DNA from: an uncultured Traorella sp.
GTDB taxonomy: Bacteria > Bacillota_I > Bacilli_A > Erysipelotrichales > Erysipelotrichaceae
Assembly (NCBI GenBank): GCA_944324265.1
Contig: CALUVS010000019.1
Location: 1 to 42,192 of the forward strand
Direction: 5' to 3'
DNA length: 42,192 nucleotides
In this document: in pieces, positions 5,714-40,649 of the stretch
Layout of the letters: each line of letters begins with the position of its first letter
Position numbering within the stretch: the stretch's first letter is position 1
Position numbers and translations under genes: made by a program
The notes under the pieces: generated by a model
Databases searched by the model: none
Seen by the model: only the letters and a program-made list of their open reading frames with translations
Told to the model about the DNA's origin: nothing

Positions 5714-5743
5714 TAAAAAACTGTGAGATTTGTTCCCACAGTT
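5714..5743 (-). terminator. Terminator of the ABC exporter operon
   Basis: AACTGTG/CACAGTT (5719-5725 with 5737-5743) is followed by six T on the minus strand. The stem includes part of the exporter stop codon. Confidence 0.75.
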
Positions 5744-7580
5744 ATTGAATGAATGCTTTTTGTTTTTCCTGCAGTGCCTGTGAAGTAAATAATTCATAAT
5801 AAGCACCTTTTTTATTCATCAGTTCATGATGAGTTCCCATTTCTTTGATCTTTCCTTTATCCAGTACAATGATCTTATCGGCATCGACAATCGTGGATAA
5901 ACGGTGTGCCACGACAAAACTTGTGCGATTTTTCAATAACGTCTGAATAGCATTCTGAATGAGTTTTTCACTCTCGGTATCAATGGAAGAAGTAGCTTCA
6001 TCTAAGATCACAATGCTTGGATTGGCCAATAAGGCTCTGGCAAAGGAAATCAATTGCTTCTGTCCGGTGGATAAAAGATCTCCGCCTTCTCCTACCTGAC
6101 TGTCATAGCCCTTGTCCAAGCGCATGATAAATTCATGGGCATGAATCAGTTTAGCAACTTCTTCTACCTCACTGTCGCTGGCATCCGGACGTCCATAGCG
6201 AATATTTTCTTTGATTGTCCCGGAGAAAAGATTCGGTGTCTGCAAGACATAGCCCAAATGAGAATGCAGCCAGCCGACACTGCGTTCCTTATAATTGCGC
6301 CCGTCAATCCGAATTTCTCCTTTTTTGGGTTCATAGAATCGGCATAACAAATTGACAATCGTGCTCTTTCCGCTGCCGGTTTCGCCGACAAGGGCAATCA
6401 TTTCACCTTGCTTGACATGCAGATTAAAATCGATGAGCACCGGTTCTTTTTCATTGTAATAAAAATCAACATGATTGAAATCCACATCTCCCAATAAAGG
6501 TTCATAATTCTCTTTTTTCGGATTTAACAAAGTACCGTATTTTGCTTCAACTTCCGGTGTATCTTTGATTTCAACTTCTTCTTCAATCAAAGACAAAACA
6601 CGTTCTGCATTTGCCTGAGCCACTTGAATTTCACTAAGCACACGAGCAATCTGACGCAGCGGTTCAAAAAACAGATCTGCATAGTTGATAAACATAGACA
6701 AAGTACCAAACTGAATGGTTTCCAGCAATACTTCTTGTCCGCCGATTGTCAGAAGCATGGCAATAACTACTCCGCTCAATAAGAAAATCAATGGCTGAAA
6801 GGTTGCATTGAGCTGTACAGCTCTTAATGAATAGTGACGCATACTGGCTGTTTTCTGACTGAATTCCGTATAGCTTTGTTCTTCAATGCCCAAAGCCTTT
6901 GTCGTTTTAGCACCGTTGATGCTTTCAGAAAAGCCGGCAGTCACCAGTGAATTGGCTTTACGGGCCTGTCTTTGTGCCTGCAGGATCCTTCTTTGAAAAT
7001 ATACCGAAATCAAAAAGACAAGCGGTACAACAGCCAATACAGCGAAAGCCATCCGCCAATCAGTAGCCAGCATAACAGCCGTAATGCCGATAATCAGAAA
7101 AACACCCCAGATCAGATCCACAAAGCTCCAGGCCAATGTTTCGGCCACACGGGAAGCATCACTGCCGATACGGGCAACGACCCATCCATTCGCTGTTCGA
7201 TCAAAGTAAGGAAAAGAAAGCTGCTGAACACGGTCAAAACACATCTTACGTAAGGTTTCGCCGAAATCACTTTCAATTTTTCCGGCAAATTTGAAATAGA
7301 AAAACATAGACAGTGATTTCAAGATAATACAGATAATATAGACAATGGAAAAATTCAGCAAACTGGCACCGACGCCTTTATCAATGACAAAGGTATTGAT
7401 AGCTGTACGATTCAATAAGGGAAAAACTACATCTCCGGCTGCAATAAATATATTAAAAAGAACTAAGCCAATCACGGCTGTTTTATGCAGCCATAGAATC
7501 TTAAATAAACGCAGCCATAATGATTTATCTATTTTCTTACTGGTATATTCCTTTTCCTGCAAAATGCTTTCACTCACCAT
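5742..7580 (-). CDS. ABC exporter half-transporter, BmrD/YheH-like, consensus ATPase site
   Basis: An N-terminal six-helix exporter domain (about residues 25-320) is followed by a nucleotide-binding domain with Walker A GETGSGKST (399-407), Walker B IVILDE (catalytic Glu at about 528) and switch AHRLST. The signature is LSTGQ instead of LSGGQ. The neighbouring half-transporter has a normal LSGGQ but Asp for the catalytic Glu. The pair therefore fits the asymmetric heterodimeric exporters (BmrCD, LmrCD, TM287/288), with this subunit in the BmrD/TM288 role. Substrates are probably hydrophobic drugs or lipids, an inference from the family. I chose the ATG at 7580 because AAGGGGGTGA lies just upstream. 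The frame overlaps the partner gene by 11 bases, so the two are coupled. A further in-frame GTG is the next codon. Confidence 0.9.
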   Translation of the reverse strand: MVSESILQEKEYTSKKIDKSLWLRLFKILWLHKTAVIGLVLFNIFIAAGDVVFPLLNRTAINTFVIDKGVGASLLNFSIVYIICIILKSLSMFFYFKFAGKIESDFGETLRKMCFDRVQQLSFPYFDRTANGWVVARIGSDASRVAETLAWSFVDLIWGVFLIIGITAVMLATDWRMAFAVLAVVPLVFLISVYFQRRILQAQRQARKANSLVTAGFSESINGAKTTKALGIEEQSYTEFSQKTASMRHYSLRAVQLNATFQPLIFLLSGVVIAMLLTIGGQEVLLETIQFGTLSMFINYADLFFEPLRQIARVLSEIQVAQANAERVLSLIEEEVEIKDTPEVEAKYGTLLNPKKENYEPLLGDVDFNHVDFYYNEKEPVLIDFNLHVKQGEMIALVGETGSGKSTIVNLLCRFYEPKKGEIRIDGRNYKERSVGWLHSHLGYVLQTPNLFSGTIKENIRYGRPDASDSEVEEVAKLIHAHEFIMRLDKGYDSQVGEGGDLLSTGQKQLISFARALLANPSIVILDEATSSIDTESEKLIQNAIQTLLKNRTSFVVAHRLSTIVDADKIIVLDKGKIKEMGTHHELMNKKGAYYELFTSQALQEKQKAFIQ

Positions 7581-9354
7581 GCTCACCCCCTTCACTCTGA
7601 ATTTCATAAATTTGTTTATAAAAGCCCTCTTGATGAATTAAGTCTTCATGCTTGCCGCACTGCACAATTCGTCCCTGATCCAATACAATGATCTGATCGG
7701 CATTGCGTGCTGTATTGATTCGATGAGTGATCATCAAGGTGGTCACCGGATAATCCAATTCATTCAAGGCTTTTTGAATCTGTGCGTCCGTCTTGGAATC
7801 CAAGGCACTCAATGAATCATCAAAGACGACAATCGGACTCTTTAACATCAAGGAACGGGCAATGGCCATACGCTGCTTCTGACCGCCGGATAAAGTAACT
7901 CCTTTTTCTCCTACTTCCGTTTCATATCCTTTATCAAATTCTTGAATCACATGGTCAATGCTGGCTGTCTGTGCCACTCGCTTCACTTCTTCCAAACTGC
8001 TGTAAGAAGCTAAACGCAGATTATCGGCAATAGTCTTAGAATATAAGAATGGTTCTTGCAGAACTACCTGCACATTTTTTCTTAAGTAAGTTTTATTGAT
8101 TTCTTTCAGCTCTACTCCATCAATTTTGATAGAACCAGACTGATAATCATAAATACCGTTCAGCAGATGCACCAAAGAGCTCTTTCCGCTGCCGGTTTTG
8201 CCCATGATGGCGACCTTGGTATTCGGATAAATATGCAGACAGATATCATGCAAAGTAGCCACGGAACTGTCATGATAGGCAAAATCCACATGATCAAACA
8301 CAATATCGCCATGAATTTCAGGTTTGCATCCGCTTTCCAGATCTTCACATTTTTCATTCAATATTTCTTCAATTCGATGAATAGAAACACTGATTTTTCC
8401 CATATCAGCGACAATTCTTCCCAATTGGCGAATCGGCCAGATAATCATCGATTCATATGAAATAAAGACAGAGAATGTACCGACCGTAATTTCTCCCTGC
8501 AGTGCAAAGTAAATGCCTGCCATGATCAAAATAAAGATCTGCAGAGTACCGATTAAATCACTGACATTCCAATAAACTGCCAATACATGCACCACCTTAT
8601 GAATACCATTGCGGAATTCATGATTCGCAGCATCAAATTTCTTGATTTCATTGATTTCCTGATTGAATGCTTTAACGACTCGTGTCGCATTCAGATTTTC
8701 CTGCAGCACCGCCATCATCTTTGCCTCATCTTCATCACATTTGGTAAAGACTCGTTTACTTACTTTATAGAACACCGCCGTTGCAATGAAGGTCAATGGC
8801 GTCAGACACAAAGCAATCAATGTCAAGGTTATATTGCGGGAAAATAATATGATTGCTGCCAAGAAAATGATCAGCACAGAATAAAACAATTCTGAAATAG
8901 AACCGGATAAAAATCTTCTGATCATATCAATATCCGAGGTGCTTCGCTGAATCAGATCTCCGCTGTCTTTCATCTTGTGATAGCTGAACGGCAGCTTCTG
9001 CATGTGATCATAAACCTCATTGCGAAGATTTTCCGCAAATGTCTCTGCTAATATCCCGCAGTTTTTTGTTCTGAGATGTACTCCTATCCCTACCAATGAA
9101 TACACCGCCAATACCATCAAACCGCCGATCCATAAATTATTTCTGAGATATTCAACACCGCCAAGCAGCTGGACAATGTTTTCGGCCCATGCTTCTTCAA
9201 GCGGCAGTCCATGAATAATATTATCGACCATATAAGATACAATGAGCGGTGCACAAAGCATTCCTGTGACATACAATGCCACATTCATCAATATCGAAAA
9301 TACTTTTTTATCATATGGCTTGGCATATTTTCTGATAAATGCTAAATCTTTCAT
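7570..9354 (-). CDS. ABC exporter half-transporter, BmrC/YheI-like, degenerate ATPase site
   Basis: This 594-residue protein has an exporter membrane domain (about residues 15-310) and an ATPase domain with Walker A GKTGSGKSS (385-393), signature LSGGQ (488-492), Walker B IVVFDD and switch THRINT. The residue at the catalytic-base position is Asp (about 513), the hallmark of the degenerate-site subunit in heterodimeric exporters. Together with the LSTGQ signature in its partner, exactly one of the two composite ATP sites would be fully active. The gene is preceded by a ribosome binding site (AGGGGAGA) and by a leader peptide and terminator hairpin (9371-9509), so expression is probably controlled by transcription attenuation. 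B. subtilis bmrCD is likewise controlled through the bmrB leader. Confidence 0.92.
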   Translation of the reverse strand: MKDLAFIRKYAKPYDKKVFSILMNVALYVTGMLCAPLIVSYMVDNIIHGLPLEEAWAENIVQLLGGVEYLRNNLWIGGLMVLAVYSLVGIGVHLRTKNCGILAETFAENLRNEVYDHMQKLPFSYHKMKDSGDLIQRSTSDIDMIRRFLSGSISELFYSVLIIFLAAIILFSRNITLTLIALCLTPLTFIATAVFYKVSKRVFTKCDEDEAKMMAVLQENLNATRVVKAFNQEINEIKKFDAANHEFRNGIHKVVHVLAVYWNVSDLIGTLQIFILIMAGIYFALQGEITVGTFSVFISYESMIIWPIRQLGRIVADMGKISVSIHRIEEILNEKCEDLESGCKPEIHGDIVFDHVDFAYHDSSVATLHDICLHIYPNTKVAIMGKTGSGKSSLVHLLNGIYDYQSGSIKIDGVELKEINKTYLRKNVQVVLQEPFLYSKTIADNLRLASYSSLEEVKRVAQTASIDHVIQEFDKGYETEVGEKGVTLSGGQKQRMAIARSLMLKSPIVVFDDSLSALDSKTDAQIQKALNELDYPVTTLMITHRINTARNADQIIVLDQGRIVQCGKHEDLIHQEGFYKQIYEIQSEGGEHGE

Positions 9355-9370: not shown

Positions 9371-9396
9371 CAAAAAAATAGGCACCTAGTGCCTAT
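9371..9396 (-). terminator. Attenuator terminator before the exporter operon
   Basis: ATAGGCAC/GTGCCTAT with a three-base loop (9378-9396) is followed by seven T on the minus strand, 17 bases before the exporter start codon and after the leader ORF. Nine bases of the hairpin (GGCACTAGG) are repeated exactly inside the leader ORF at 9447-9455, which allows mutually exclusive pairing. Confidence 0.85.
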
Positions 9397-9431
9397 TGAT
9401 ATGCGTATACGTCAAAGTACAAACAGATATT

Positions 9432-9509
9432 TTATCTGCCTAACTTCCTAGTGCCACTAAGAATTTGAGTTTCAAATGTAAAAAAGTTCAATAATAACAT
9501 CTTTTTCAT
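9432..9509 (-). CDS. 25-residue leader peptide controlling the ABC exporter
   Basis: A short ORF with an excellent ribosome binding site (AAGGAGG about 8 bases upstream) begins with MKKMLLLNFFTF and ends LSGTRKLGR. It lies between a strong promoter (9545-9573) and a terminator (9371-9396) in front of the exporter genes. Codons 17-21 (CTT AGT GGC ACT AGG) can fold into a six-pair hairpin. The same GGCACTAGG recurs in the terminator, so UUAGUG in the leader could pair with CACUAG of the terminator and prevent its formation. A ribosome stalled by an antibiotic would change which pairing forms. The arrangement resembles bmrB-bmrCD, but the peptide itself is not one I recognise. Confidence 0.75.
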   Translation of the reverse strand: MKKMLLLNFFTFETQILSGTRKLGR

Positions 9510-16741: not shown

Positions 16742-17515
16742 ATGTTTGAAGATGTGGCTTTACGAGCACTATTCTTGTCAACACTTGCGGGTTTGTCGAC
16801 AATGATTGGTGCTTTGATCATATTTTTTACGAATGGGAAAAATGAAAAACTCATCAGTGCTTCTTTGGCTTTTGCAGGGGGCGTGATGATCTCCGTCTCT
16901 TATACAGAGCTGATTCCAAATGCTATGGCATATTTTGGAATAGATTCAAATAAACCATTGGCTACGATATTGATGGTTCTATTTTTGGCATTGGGCATTG
17001 TATTTGCTGCAATGCTTGATAAATTTGTTCCGCATGAAGAAAATAAGGAAACTCATGAAGCGAAGCATGAAAACTTATACCGTGTAGGATTTATCTCCAT
17101 GATGGCCTTAGCTCTGCATAATTTTCCTGAAGGAATTGCAACATTTATGGCTGGCTTTGATTCTATTGAATTAGGTCTGACAATTGCCTTGGCCATTGCT
17201 TTCCATAACATTCCGGAAGGAATTACTGTGGCATTACCAATTTATTTTTCCACTGGATCACGTAAAAAAGCTCTGGGATATACTTTCTTATCTTCTATCA
17301 CAGAGCCATTGGGAGCCTTGCTGGCATTTGTTGTATTAAGACCCTTTATCAATGATTTCATGCTTGGTATTATTTTCTCATTGATTTCAGGTATTATGTT
17401 ATATATTGCTATTGAAGAATTGCTTCCTTCTTCAAAGGATTATGGTTATCCGAAAATTGCTTTATACGCAACATTTGCAGGCATATGCTTAATGCCATTA
17501 ACAATGATGTTTTAA
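16742..17515 (+). CDS. zupT: ZIP family divalent metal transporter, ZupT-like
   Basis: The only plus-strand gene. Its 257 residues form about eight membrane helices. The two metal-site helices carry HNFPEGIATFMAG (about residues 122-134) and HNIPEGITVALPI (about 156-168), the ZupT signature for uptake of zinc and also iron, manganese or cobalt. A His/Glu-rich cytoplasmic loop (VPHEENKETHEAKHEN) precedes them, as in many ZIP proteins. AAAGGATGTGAG serves as ribosome binding site. An ATG four bases earlier opens a frame that stops after three codons, so 16742 is the start. No metal-responsive operator is recognisable. Confidence 0.92.
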   Translation: MFEDVALRALFLSTLAGLSTMIGALIIFFTNGKNEKLISASLAFAGGVMISVSYTELIPNAMAYFGIDSNKPLATILMVLFLALGIVFAAMLDKFVPHEENKETHEAKHENLYRVGFISMMALALHNFPEGIATFMAGFDSIELGLTIALAIAFHNIPEGITVALPIYFSTGSRKKALGYTFLSSITEPLGALLAFVVLRPFINDFMLGIIFSLISGIMLYIAIEELLPSSKDYGYPKIALYATFAGICLMPLTMMF

Positions 17516-17521
17516 GAAATA

Positions 17522-17547
17522 AGATGATGAACGTCATCTTTTTTTTG
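17522..17547 (+). terminator. zupT terminator
   Basis: AAGATGA/TCATCTT (17522-17528 with 17535-17541) is followed by a run of T on the plus strand, seven bases after the stop codon. Confidence 0.85.
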
Positions 17548-17550
17548 TAA

Positions 17551-17653
17551 AAGAAAAGTCCTTGTGGGGCAAGGACTGAATTGAATTCGGATCATTTCTG
17601 ACCCATAAAGTTTGTCATTCGTTGTAGTAGTTATCATAGAAAGGTGAATGACC
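17551..17653 (-). ncRNA. Candidate structured small RNA, about 105 nt
   Basis: An intergenic minus-strand unit with its own signals. An extended -10 box TGTTATACT ends at 17660, and a strong terminator (AGTCCTTG/CAAGGACT, 17558-17578) is followed by TTTTCTTTT. The transcript between them would fold into GUCAUUC/GAAUGAC closing a 25-base loop (17614-17652), then GGGUCA-GAAA-UGAUCC (17588-17603, a GNRA-type tetraloop), then the terminator. No ORF fits. I do not recognise a known RNA family. It lies between the convergent ends of zupT and the first surface-protein gene. Confidence 0.5.
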
Positions 17654-17659
17654 GTATAG

Positions 17660-17668
17660 AGTATAACA
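17660..17668 (-). promoter_or_regulatory. Extended -10 promoter of the candidate small RNA
   Basis: TGTTATACT on the minus strand (TATACT at 17665-17660 preceded by TGT). No clear -35 is present, which is tolerated by extended -10 promoters. The predicted start is near 17653, at the base of the first stem. Confidence 0.45.
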
Positions 17669-17814
17669 TATTTTTAAAAAATTTAAAGAATAAATATTAA
17701 AAAAATACGAAATTTTCAGGAGATAGCTTCTATGCCCGTGTTTTAATTATAATAACTTCTATCTTCGTGTCAGAATCAAAAATAGACCACTGTATTTTAA
17801 ATCGAATATTACAT

Positions 17815-17846
17815 AAAAAAGGATTTCTCGATTGGGAGAAATCCTT
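17815..17846 (-). terminator. Terminator of the first surface-protein gene
   Basis: AAGGATTTCTC/GAGAAATCCTT (17819-17829 with 17836-17846) is followed by six T on the minus strand. Confidence 0.85.
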
Positions 17847-17886
17847 TCTATAGATTAATGAGATTAATGAGTTTAATTAATTTAGA

Positions 17887-20160
17887 TTATGCGTGCCATT
17901 CACCGTTAGCATCGATAGTGCATCCATCAACTACAGTGTTAGTAACCATCTTACCATCAGCACCTACATAGTACCATACCTGTAAGCTAGAATCACGTGC
18001 GATCCAAGAGTTAGTTAACATAACTCCGTTAGCTCCTGCATAATACCAGTCATTGTTGTGGTCAGCTACCCAAACGTTAGATACTGTACGTCCGTCTTGG
18101 TAGAATACCCATTGACCGTTTTCAAATACCCACCAGTCTTTAGTCACGATGATTTCTGCTTCTGCATTTTTCACTCTGTTACTGATTCTTTCTAAACGAT
18201 CCTGTTCTGCTTCTAATGAACGTCTTTCACGTGCATTCAGTTCATATTTACTGTCTTTTGCAAGCAATTTTTCCAATGCATCCATTGCATTGTCAACTAA
18301 GTCAATTTCACCAGTAGTGTAAGTCCATTTCAATTCTACACCTTCAGCTTCTTCAACAATGGCAATCAAGTCTTCTTTTGTAACTACAGTTACATCAGTG
18401 TCAACCAATACATCATAAACTGTGTCTTCTGATTTCTGGTCAGCATCTAAGATTGTAGTTAAGATAGCTCTTACGTTTTCATCAATATCGTTGTTATCGA
18501 TATAAGCAGCTAAATCAGTAGCAGTTTCTCTTACATAATAACGTCCGCTTGATCTTTCTCTAGTTTCATAAGTATAGAATTCGCTTACAACTTCTTCTAC
18601 ATATGCCTGTACAGCTTCAATATCTTCTGCTGAGAAGTATTTGTCAATTACATCTAATGCAGCTTCATCATTCTTATTAGCTAAACGATTCACATCACTT
18701 CTTACTGATCTGTAAGCTTTGTTTACATCAGAAGAAGAATCTAACAATTCATCAACTGTTTCTAAATCAGCAATGACATTTTCTACTGCATCGATAATTT
18801 CAACTACATCAGCTTCTTCACCGTATAATGTATATTCATCAGATGCTTGAACTTCTTCTAATTTCTTAGTTAATGCAGCTAAAGATCTTCCTTGATATTT
18901 GTCATTCTTATCTAATTCTAATTCTTTAGCAAATTCTTTCTTTAAGCTTTCTACATATTCTTCAGCGTATACATCATAGAATTCATCTTTGTATACAGCA
19001 ACCATATCTTTGAATGCATCTGCATTGTCTTCGAATCTGCTTACTCTATTTTTATTCCATGTAGTATTGCCTAAATATTTTTCGTTTGCTAATAATCTGT
19101 TGTAAAGATCTTCGTAATTAGCTTTCCAATCTTTTTCATCTTTGATTTCTTCTGCTTTTACTGCAGCAGCTAAATCATCGAAAAGATCATCCATATCAGC
19201 TAATCCTTCTTTGAATCCAGCGATATATTTAACATCATCACTAGCTTCACGGCTTCCTGTACAGTTGTTTACACGTGCATCAAAGATTCCGTTCATTTCA
19301 TTCAGCATTGAATTGAATGTAGCACCTGCATCTTTGCCTTCTTCTAATAATGAATTCAAATTATGCCAATTAATTCTGTCACCTAATTGAACAGTTTCTA
19401 AATCTTTACCAGCGTTTTCTAAATCCATTAAGATAGCTTCCGCATAATCATCAACTTTTAATGTATTCAGATCACACACACCAGTATCTACTTCTTCTTC
19501 ATCATCTTTAGAAGGAAGTGTATCATAGATGACTAATTCTCTGTCTAATGCATAAGAACTAGGATCAGCACCTCTACCAAACGCCCACATATAACGAATT
19601 GATTCTACATCACCATATGTTGTAACATTTTCTACTTCAATAGTACCTACTAGTTCATCATAGTTTTCAACTGTAAATACTGCAGATAAGTTATTTTCTT
19701 CATCTTTTTTGAATGTCCAATTATATGTGTAAATACCATTTTCCTTTACATCAATTGTTTCTGGACCAAATCCAGTTGAAATAACATATCCATTATCTGT
19801 TTTTGTAGTTGTAGCATAAAATTCTGAAGCATATTGTGCACTCAAATCTTCAAGCACAACATCTAAAACAAATAATTCACCTGCTTCATAGCCTTCTAAT
19901 CCTACATGTGCAGAAATAGTAGTTCCGTTTGCAGTAATTCTTGAGTTGTTTTCTCTGTTTAAAGCTCCACCAGGTTCTGTACCGATGTATGCATTACCAT
20001 CTCTGTCAAAGCGAACACTAGCACCGTTTGATTCCCAGCCGCTAGCATCTACTGTGTTGGTAACAGCATTAGCAGCATGAACATGAGTGCTTGCAGGCAA
20101 CACACTAGCAACCATAGACAAAGCCATAGCACTAGCTAATAACTTCTTAAAGTTATTCAT
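17887..20160 (-). CDS. Secreted surface protein 1 with C-terminal cell-wall-binding repeats, 757 aa
   Basis: The signal peptide MNNFKKLLASAMAL...VASVLP is shared with three paralogues; cleavage is likely near residue 29-30. Unlike the others, this member has an inserted N-terminal domain (about 33-215) that looks beta-rich, followed by an acidic linker (PSKDDEEEVD). The family region then begins: Cys229, the LGDRINW motif, Cys300, long acidic helices with DAFKDMVAVYKDEFYDVY, and ERSSGRYYV about 540. The last 85 residues are aromatic repeats (GQWVFYQDG, DWYYAGANGVM, VWYYVGADGKM) like choline- or glucan-binding repeats. These would tether the protein to wall polymers without covalent anchoring. 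The leader upstream is nearly identical to those of the paralogues. The binding partner and function are unknown. Confidence 0.8.
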   Translation of the reverse strand: MNNFKKLLASAMALSMVASVLPASTHVHAANAVTNTVDASGWESNGASVRFDRDGNAYIGTEPGGALNRENNSRITANGTTISAHVGLEGYEAGELFVLDVVLEDLSAQYASEFYATTTKTDNGYVISTGFGPETIDVKENGIYTYNWTFKKDEENNLSAVFTVENYDELVGTIEVENVTTYGDVESIRYMWAFGRGADPSSYALDRELVIYDTLPSKDDEEEVDTGVCDLNTLKVDDYAEAILMDLENAGKDLETVQLGDRINWHNLNSLLEEGKDAGATFNSMLNEMNGIFDARVNNCTGSREASDDVKYIAGFKEGLADMDDLFDDLAAAVKAEEIKDEKDWKANYEDLYNRLLANEKYLGNTTWNKNRVSRFEDNADAFKDMVAVYKDEFYDVYAEEYVESLKKEFAKELELDKNDKYQGRSLAALTKKLEEVQASDEYTLYGEEADVVEIIDAVENVIADLETVDELLDSSSDVNKAYRSVRSDVNRLANKNDEAALDVIDKYFSAEDIEAVQAYVEEVVSEFYTYETRERSSGRYYVRETATDLAAYIDNNDIDENVRAILTTILDADQKSEDTVYDVLVDTDVTVVTKEDLIAIVEEAEGVELKWTYTTGEIDLVDNAMDALEKLLAKDSKYELNARERRSLEAEQDRLERISNRVKNAEAEIIVTKDWWVFENGQWVFYQDGRTVSNVWVADHNNDWYYAGANGVMLTNSWIARDSSLQVWYYVGADGKMVTNTVVDGCTIDANGEWHA

Positions 20161-20246
20161 AAATTTTTTCCTCTCTTTCTTTCTCTTTCCCTATTGGAAT
20201 TCTTGTTTTTCGGACACAATCATGTAAGTCATTGCATAACTGAATC
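20095..20246 (-). repeat. Shared leader plus signal-peptide repeat, copy 1
   Basis: 86 bases upstream of the ATG and about 66 bases of signal-peptide codons are nearly identical in four places. The leader runs from GATTCAGTTATGCAATG, through GTGTCCGAAAAAC, to a purine-only stretch and the GAGAGG ribosome binding site. Similarity stops abruptly at GATTCAG, just after the terminator of the upstream ATPase gene, so the block must contain the promoter. I see no canonical -35/-10 pair. Confidence 0.9.
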
Positions 20247-20258
20247 GCATGAAAGAGC

Positions 20259-20286
20259 AAAAAAAAGAGGACTTTTTAAATCCTCT
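20259..20286 (-). terminator. Terminator of the DUF234 ATPase gene
   Basis: AGAGGA/TCCTCT (20266-20271 with 20281-20286) is followed by eight T on the minus strand, 4 bases after the stop codon and 13 bases before the conserved surface-gene leader. Confidence 0.75.
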
Positions 20287-20290
20287 GGGA

Positions 20291-21697
20291 CTATATGCTA
20301 TATAAATTATCCAATGTAATCAAATGAACATGTGTATTCTCATCAGCAATTTGTATGAGTTTCTTATCAAAACCTTTTTTTGAGAATAAATAATATAATT
20401 TATGTTCTTGATGAAACATTTTCGCTCTTTCAGTTAAGATCATGAAATCTTCAACTTTAAAATTCTCGTTTTTAAACTTGCATTCTCCAAGCAAGCAATA
20501 ATCTTTGTTGTACATCAATATATCGATGTCATCTTGCATAGGATATCCTTTTTCGTTTTTCCGATAAGGATTTGCACCCCACCACTTTCCGATATGTTGA
20601 GGAATAAATGATAATTGACCTTTCTTTACCAGTCGAATGAGATACTCCATGCACATTTTTTCAAATATACTTCCCATATATTGATTTAAATTATTTTCGA
20701 TAAATTGATATCCAATTTCTTCACCAAATAATTCAATTTCCTGTTTGTGCGGAAATACAAACCGATACCAGAAATGAAAGAAATTGTCTTGAAATTGATA
20801 AAGTGTTTTTTTGCTTTGTGCAATTTCTTCTGTTGCTGGTACTATTTTTTCAGTAATTCTTAATTGATTTAGGACATTGATATATTTTGATGTTTTTGTA
20901 TTTTCTTCATGAATCTGATTAGCAATTTCACTTATTTTTGCATTGCCGTTTGCCAGTGCTTCTAATATCGAATTATAAACACTTATCTCTCTCAATTCTG
21001 TTTTCAGCAAATATGTAGGTTCTTCAAATAAATATGATGTGTTCTTTAATATTTGACTTTCTATGTTCTTTTTTAATGTGTCATCTGCATCATATAATTC
21101 AAGATATTTTGGTATTCCTCCAAATATTCCATATATATACGCTTTTGTTTCTGCACTCAAATTCTCTGTAAATAAAGAAGCATCATAATAATCAAAAGGT
21201 TTAATTTCCATTGAGCCTGTTCTTCTTCCATATAAAGGTGATTTAGAAGACAGTACTTCTTTTTCCATAAATGAAATTGAACTGCCGCATAATATAAGTT
21301 TAATATTTTTCTTTGACCAATTATGATCAATTATATGTTCAAGTATCGACATGATTGTCGGATTTTCTAATGCAATAAATGGAAATTCATCAATAATTAA
21401 TATAAGTCTTTCCTCCTCTTGATTGCCGATAAATTCAAATGCATTCTCCCAAGAAGAAAAATAAAAGCCTTTTCCTAAATGATAATATTCTGCTGTACGC
21501 TCAGAAAAACTCAATAGATTCATGGCATCATTTTTTTCTTGTGCAGAATAAAATAATGTTTTATACTTTTTTGCTAATTGATTCAATAATTCTGTCTTTC
21601 CTACACGTCTTCGTCCATAAATAACCATGAACTCAAATTTGTTGGATTCTGCCATTTGTATAAGCGTCTGCATTTCTTTCTCTCTTGCAATAAACAT
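20291..21697 (-). CDS. ATPase_2/DUF234 family ATP-binding protein with nuclease-like C-terminus
   Basis: This 468-residue protein has P-loop GRRRVGKTE (28-36), Walker B LILIIDEFPF (Asp103-Glu104) and LCGSSISFM after it, typical of archaeal-type ATPases (ATPase_2). A winged-helix-like middle (about 235-290) precedes the DUF234 C-terminus, where DIDILMYNKDYCLLGECKF gives the Asp...Glu-x-Lys pattern (D392, E405, K407) of the PD-(D/E)xK nuclease superfamily. The biological role of these ATPases is unclear. GGAGGTG precedes the ATG. A 37-base palindrome lies between the promoter and the gene, suggesting autoregulation. It sits directly upstream of surface-protein gene 1; a related arrangement recurs at 40660-41883. 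Confidence 0.82.
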   Translation of the reverse strand: MFIAREKEMQTLIQMAESNKFEFMVIYGRRRVGKTELLNQLAKKYKTLFYSAQEKNDAMNLLSFSERTAEYYHLGKGFYFSSWENAFEFIGNQEEERLILIIDEFPFIALENPTIMSILEHIIDHNWSKKNIKLILCGSSISFMEKEVLSSKSPLYGRRTGSMEIKPFDYYDASLFTENLSAETKAYIYGIFGGIPKYLELYDADDTLKKNIESQILKNTSYLFEEPTYLLKTELREISVYNSILEALANGNAKISEIANQIHEENTKTSKYINVLNQLRITEKIVPATEEIAQSKKTLYQFQDNFFHFWYRFVFPHKQEIELFGEEIGYQFIENNLNQYMGSIFEKMCMEYLIRLVKKGQLSFIPQHIGKWWGANPYRKNEKGYPMQDDIDILMYNKDYCLLGECKFKNENFKVEDFMILTERAKMFHQEHKLYYLFSKKGFDKKLIQIADENTHVHLITLDNLYSI

Positions 21698-23947: not shown

Positions 23948-24033
23948 AAATTTTTTCCTCTCTTTCTTTCTCTTTCCCTATTGGAATTCTTATTTTTCGG
24001 ACACAATCATGTAAGTCATTGCATAACTGAATC
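23882..24033 (-). repeat. Shared leader plus signal-peptide repeat, copy 2
   Basis: Same block as copy 1. The leader differs at one base near the T stretch (TTATTTTTCGG against TTGTTTTTCGG), and the signal-peptide codons are almost unchanged. It ends at the same GATTCAG boundary. Confidence 0.9.
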
Positions 24034-24050
24034 TAGTGAAAGAATATAGA

Positions 24051-26128: not shown

Positions 26129-26213
26129 AAATTTTTTCCTCTCTTTCTTTCTCTTTCCCTATTGGAATTCTATTTTTTTTTTTTTTTTATGTAAGTCATT
26201 GCATAACTGAATC
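26063..26213 (-). repeat. Shared leader plus signal-peptide repeat, copy 3, with homopolymer tract
   Basis: Same block as the other copies, but 16 T (plus strand, 26173-26188) replace the five T and CGGACACAATC seen at the same place in copy 4. Total length is unchanged at 85 bases upstream of the ATG. On the coding strand this is a 16-A tract about 45 bases before the start. Confidence 0.88.
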
Positions 26214-26230
26214 TCATAGAGATATGAAAG

Positions 26231-40528: not shown

Positions 40529-40613
40529 AAATTTTTTCCTCTCTTTCTTTCTCTTTCCCTATTGGAATTCTATTTTTCGGACACAATCATGTAAGTCATT
40601 GCATAACTGAATC
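40463..40613 (-). repeat. Shared leader plus signal-peptide repeat, copy 4
   Basis: Same block as copies 1-3. It matches copy 3 except that it has the unique CGGACACAATC sequence where copy 3 has T. It ends at the same GATTCAG boundary, about 15 bases from the terminator of the upstream ATPase gene. Confidence 0.9.
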
Positions 40614-40626
40614 ACTGAGAAAGCAA

Positions 40627-40649
40627 AAGAAAAGATCGATTTCTCGATC
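40627..40649 (-). terminator. Terminator of the DUF4143 ATPase gene
   Basis: GATCGA-GAAA-TCGATC (coding strand; 40634-40649) is followed by TTTTCTTTT, 11 bases after the stop. Confidence 0.75.

Follow-up and report, generated by a model that had tools for sequence, protein, structure and literature searches.

Does the 371-nt intergenic region between zupT and a surface-protein gene, in the stretch of uncultured Traorella sp. DNA analyzed here (42,192 nucleotides; hereinafter, the window), harbor a separate gene for a small RNA on its minus strand and, if so, what might such an RNA do? The sequence-only reading of this locus described a free-standing regulatory RNA, possibly directed at the leaders of surface genes. 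The site that it gave, between convergent genes (zupT on the plus strand and the surface gene on the minus strand), is correct, and the extended -10 box, the stem of 7 pairs with its 25-base loop, the GNRA hairpin and the terminator are all present on the minus strand (Table 1). The loop segment CACCUUUCU that it singled out is present as well, although its first C still belongs to the stem, as the last base there, rather than to the loop.

A discrete non-coding RNA is predicted to start at approximately position 17653, from the extended -10 promoter, which is preceded, with a spacer of 16, by a weak -35 element, TTTAAA (promoter total 9/12), in an A+T-rich tract; transcription would end at approximately position 17549, at the intrinsic terminator. 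The minimum free energy and the centroid folds both consist of exactly three hairpins, namely, the 5' stem-loop, in which GUCAUUC (17652-17646) pairs with GAAUGAC (17620-17614) and encloses 25 nt, the GNRA hairpin (1 of 200 shuffles equally stable), and the terminator, AGUCCUUG-CCCCA-CAAGGACU at 17577-17557 followed by UUUCUUUU (0 of 200 shuffles equally stable). The terminator-like hairpin of zupT adjoins the candidate RNA without overlapping it. The upstream surface gene has its own, stronger terminator and so does not need that of the candidate; a second terminator 270 bases beyond that of the surface gene calls for another transcript, most simply, a short one.

Table 1. Features of the zupT-surface gene intergenic region and its flanks (window coordinates)
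Feature	Position	Strand	Basis or predicted energy
zupT, ZIP metal transporter	16742-17515	+	gene call
Terminator-like hairpin of zupT	17521-17545	+	-7.1 kcal/mol
Putative transcript, ~105 nt	17549-17653	-	ends inferred from -10 and terminator
Intrinsic terminator, 8-bp stem, CCCCA loop, UUUCUUUU U tract	17549-17577	-	-10.0 kcal/mol
GGGUCA-GAAA-UGAUCC hairpin, 6 bp, GNRA loop	17589-17604	-	-6.3 kcal/mol
5' stem-loop, 7-bp stem, 25-nt loop ACCUUUCUAUGAUAACUACUACAAC	17614-17652	-	predicted fold
Extended -10 element TGTTATACT (TG-N-TATACT)	17660-17668	-	sequence
Surface gene's own terminator, 12-bp stem, upstream of the candidate RNA	17818-17847	-	-14.6 kcal/mol
Surface gene, choline-binding-type repeat at its end	17887-20160	-	gene call

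Upstream of the candidate and pointing toward it, there is also a sigma-A-like promoter, CTGACA-16-TATAAT (11/12; window 17723-17773, minus strand), from which a longer, 187-nt transcript could originate; 3 of 1000 shuffles are as stable as this longer form. The promoter is overlapped by the best direct repeat of the region, the imperfect ACACGnnnATAGAAGyTAT (17770-17752 and 17741-17723, 15/19 identical), that has no other occurrence in the genome. Consideration of this repeat as an upstream operator was abandoned for lack of significance, since 15 identities are reached in 289 of 1000 shuffles.

The signals were compared with chance using 2000 dinucleotide shuffles of the 371-nt region and a joint rule that requires TG-N and a -10 hexamer in which no more than one position is mismatched, followed at 40-200 nt by a terminator whose stem has at least 7 pairs, three or more of them G-C, and that has 6 T in 8. 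A single shuffle complied with the joint rule; an extended -10 alone appeared in 281 shuffles and a terminator alone in 11. The -10 element alone is therefore weak evidence, and the joint rarity is owed mostly to the terminator. Across the whole window, the rule is satisfied at two further places besides the candidate: one combines a -10-like match within the surface gene with the terminator of this gene, and the other precedes an ABC transporter pair. As for the fold, 12 of 4000 shuffles are as stable as the 101-nt RNA, 82 of 4000 as the 77 nt that remain when the terminator is removed, and 64 of 4000 as the 39-nt 5' stem-loop. The better-than-shuffle stability is mainly due to the terminator, the remainder being only modestly unusual; a z score of -2.8 or below, found in 22 of 702 minus-strand windows of 77 nt, is not rare. 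On the plus strand, the fold stands out less (z -1.27, 24 of 200 shuffles equally stable).

Contrary to the claim that there is no ORF, a 41-codon ATG frame (17512-17637, minus strand) crosses the RNA together with its terminator. We consider it highly improbable that the RNA is a small mRNA from which this frame is translated. The frame does stay open through the RNA and past the terminator, and it yields weak matches to a phage-related family of 53-54 amino acids in two libraries (E 0.21 and 0.23); however, by eye, no Shine-Dalgarno sequence precedes the ATG, translation of the frame would require read-through of the terminator, and the phage-family matches are at the level of chance, no family match being better than E 0.2 and a tblastn search against phages being empty. 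The candidate is non-coding in the sense applied to intergenic small RNAs.

Searches for homologues, including the covariance model search of related genomes that the sequence-only reading had suggested as a check, yielded nothing convincing. None of the 4227 Rfam families matched within the window at the gathering score, and with E up to 5 there were only three matches in 17400-17900, all below threshold and on the plus strand. The RNA is present in a single copy in its genome, apart from one 15-nt chance match. By blastn, two of the five genomes of the genus, including its own, gave a match, the other one consisting of 29 nt over the terminator tail; in the family (E 0.01), 17 of 272 genomes matched, again including its own, and the 16 loci from other genomes were all 19-40 nt long. 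When these 16 loci were rescored with the covariance model, there were three matches, in L010 and L017. The surroundings of three loci (L017, L016 and L019) were read. L017, the most similar blastn match (E 0.0075) and reminiscent of the 5' loop, is part of a frame of 262 codons or more that would encode a secreted-type protein; it was rejected, as was L016, coding-like by eye, without a frame call, whereas L019 was left unassigned.

With two identical rows of one sequence as its basis, the covariance model, R1, has a limited reach and could miss diverged homologues; chance matches at E 0.01 are expected among hundreds of genomes. In the family (272 genomes, E 0.05), R1 recovered the own genome and two others; one of these matches runs across the 3' end of a peptide deformylase-like frame (HELDHFKG..., by eye) into the terminator that follows, and the other has the appearance of coding sequence with a terminator after it, so both were discarded. 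With looser filters (36 relatives, E 2), seven genomes matched, the own one included. The best of these matches, in a congener (G001, E 0.0099), is devoid of the GNRA hairpin and falls in a promoter region between divergent genes; L157 was judged from the alignment alone, and the six other weak loci, all with E of at least 0.4, were left unread. Only the own genome was found among 315 genomes of the order (E 0.005) and among 395 of the class (E 0.001); the family, order and class sets overlap, and each contains the own genome. In the four congeners, the RNA was absent both by blastn and by the looser-filter model. A pattern consisting of both stems occurs in 108 stretches of genome contigs from many phyla, which is close to the number estimated for chance (2 x 257 Gb x 19 x 13 gap choices / 4^20, or ~115), and R1 matched none of the 80 such loci that were returned. 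Two exact patterns gave no match in viral contigs, and neither did a distant blastn search in phages and plasmids. Thus, by sequence comparison, there is no convincing homologue in the family, order and class sets, in phages, plasmids or viral contigs and, consequently, there is no covariation evidence and no sign of purifying selection. Synteny is of no help either because, although zupT is found in all four congeners (74-76% identity), the sequence and gene order behind it are unlike those of the window in each.

The explanation that we favor, with confidence that is about evenly balanced, is that the locus plausibly encodes an orphan intergenic small RNA of an ordinary kind, approximately 105 nt long, in this species, that is unrecognizable in relatives. 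In favor of a small RNA gene, the extended -10 and the terminator are spaced as in a short gene and the minus-strand fold is preferred over the plus-strand one; against it, the -35 is poor and extended -10 boxes are not unusual in shuffles (281 of 2000). The latter two points would suit the alternative that there is no separate transcript but only a leftover terminator and a chance -10 in decaying intergenic DNA; we deem this unlikely given that such a terminator appears in so few shuffles and both signals at the right spacing in just one of 2000. A more serious competitor, possible but clearly less probable than a small RNA gene, is a real but young or functionless transcript that stems from a chance promoter beside a spare terminator, the intergenic region having been rebuilt on the arrival of species-specific surface genes. 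The absence of the RNA from all relatives searched, the different gene order behind zupT in the four congeners, the lack of the surface-protein family in the same four genomes (0 of 4 at E 1e-5), and the only modestly unusual fold outside the terminator are all compatible with this scenario; however, three well-formed consecutive hairpins and a clean terminator exceed the minimum that noise would supply. Lack of conservation, for its part, is frequent among genuine small RNAs and is not a strong argument against one here: only 10 of the 30 intergenic non-coding RNAs of S. pyogenes are common to S. agalactiae (PMC6431027).

The proposed connection to the surface proteins has to be assessed against the properties of that family. 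At least 10 surface genes begin with MNNFKKLLAS/AGA and carry, before the start codon, a near-identical block of about 85 bases that opens with GATTCAGTTATGCAATGACTTACATG (window 20161-20270, 23948-24050, 26129-26230 and 40529-40640; L159/L160 on contig C5). The leader GGGAAAGAGAAAGAAAGAGAGGAAAA occurs in nine exact copies in the genome, four in the window and five on contig C5, the 26-nt purine leader being identical in nine surface genes; the tenth family member (C5 6769-8544) has a variant leader. The near identity of these blocks, together with the absence of the family from the congeners, suggests gene conversion or a recent expansion of a surface cassette. In one of the upstream blocks (window 26129-26200), a run of A replaces the conserved TGATTGTGTCCG, which perhaps reflects a promoter that is silenced or variable in length, or else an error of the assembly. 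In both clusters, ATPase genes are interspersed with the surface genes (window 20291-21697; L159 10856-12250 and 14181-15509) and match the PADLOC candidate-defence models PDC-S27 and PDC-S01; the ATPase at window 20291-21697 is ATPase_2/DUF234 by Pfam.

Pairing of the loop was compared across 66 gene starts picked from ORF lists, 40 in the window and 26 in the initial 40 kb of C5, with frames 1207, 3334, 10328 and 26245 excluded owing to doubtful starts; full-length duplex energies join the whole RNA, which is unrealistic, and only the results for the loop were used. The AGAAAG motif is present in 10 of 10 surface starts vs 11 of 56 others. Each of the 10 surface genes has a longest pairing run of 8 with the loop, and 21 of the 56 other genes have runs of 8-10; the mean duplex energy is -9.36 kcal/mol for the surface genes vs -9.45 kcal/mol for the full set of 66. 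In pairing with the leader, the real loop is equaled by 158 of 1000 shuffled loops. This is the pairing of any pyrimidine stretch with any purine-rich ribosome binding site, and neither the pairing with surface leaders put forward in the sequence-only reading nor the target prediction that it recommended sets the surface genes apart. Hence, it is quite improbable that the RNA is a trans-acting regulator of the surface-protein family: the shared AGAAAG and the exact leader, the position of the RNA beside a member of the family and the failure to find either of them in the four congeners would fit such a role, but the loop pairs no better with these leaders than with other genes, and no better than shuffled loops do. 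We assign the same low probability to a small RNA specific to this species that originated or was acquired along with this likewise species-specific family of at least 10 members, with near-identical promoters and leaders, and that tunes all of them together through sites outside the simple pairing test, for example, with the aid of a protein partner or inside the coding start AAGUUAUUAGC. The proposed regulatory RNA thus survives in part, a small RNA gene being the likeliest interpretation in view of the box, the hairpins and the spare terminator, and its surface target being unsupported.

Elsewhere in the window, two ABC exporter genes (7570-9354 and 5742-7607) are preceded at 9375-9509 (minus strand) by a frame of 25 codons, MKKMLLLNFFTFETQILSGTRKLGR, that has a strong Shine-Dalgarno sequence and is followed by the terminator ATAGGCACTAGGTGCCTATTTTTTT. 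This arrangement resembles a leader-peptide attenuator of the BmrB/BmrCD type.

If functional, the small RNA most likely would act as an ordinary base-pairing RNA. The ACCUUUCU stretch in the 5' loop and the CCCCA loop of the terminator are predicted pyrimidine- or cytosine-rich single strands that resemble anti-Shine-Dalgarno seeds and could cover the purine-rich ribosome binding sites of some mRNAs. In its promoter-like box, short length, hairpins, intrinsic terminator, lack of a likely ORF and single-stranded pyrimidine-rich loops, the candidate is similar to the trans-encoded intergenic small RNAs of Firmicutes; it differs in having no relatives. RoxS engages G-rich target sites by base pairing through its C-rich regions (PMC5419742). 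The candidate would be comparable to RoxS/RsaE in its mode of action only, as a short RNA whose single-stranded C-rich stretches could meet G-rich ribosome binding sites; unlike RoxS/RsaE, it matches no Rfam family even at a permissive threshold and has one CCCC stretch only, inside the terminator loop. Base pairing through ACCUUUCU or CCCCA at ribosome binding sites, in the manner of RoxS, is plausible by analogy and does not imply membership in that family.

A literature search on this gut-type Firmicute group yielded no paper that joins small RNAs with maps of transcription starts. If transcribed, the RNA described here would be one more orphan small RNA in this group. Orphan small RNAs are common, so, by itself, this one changes little; it would matter more only if found to coordinate the repeated surface-protein family.
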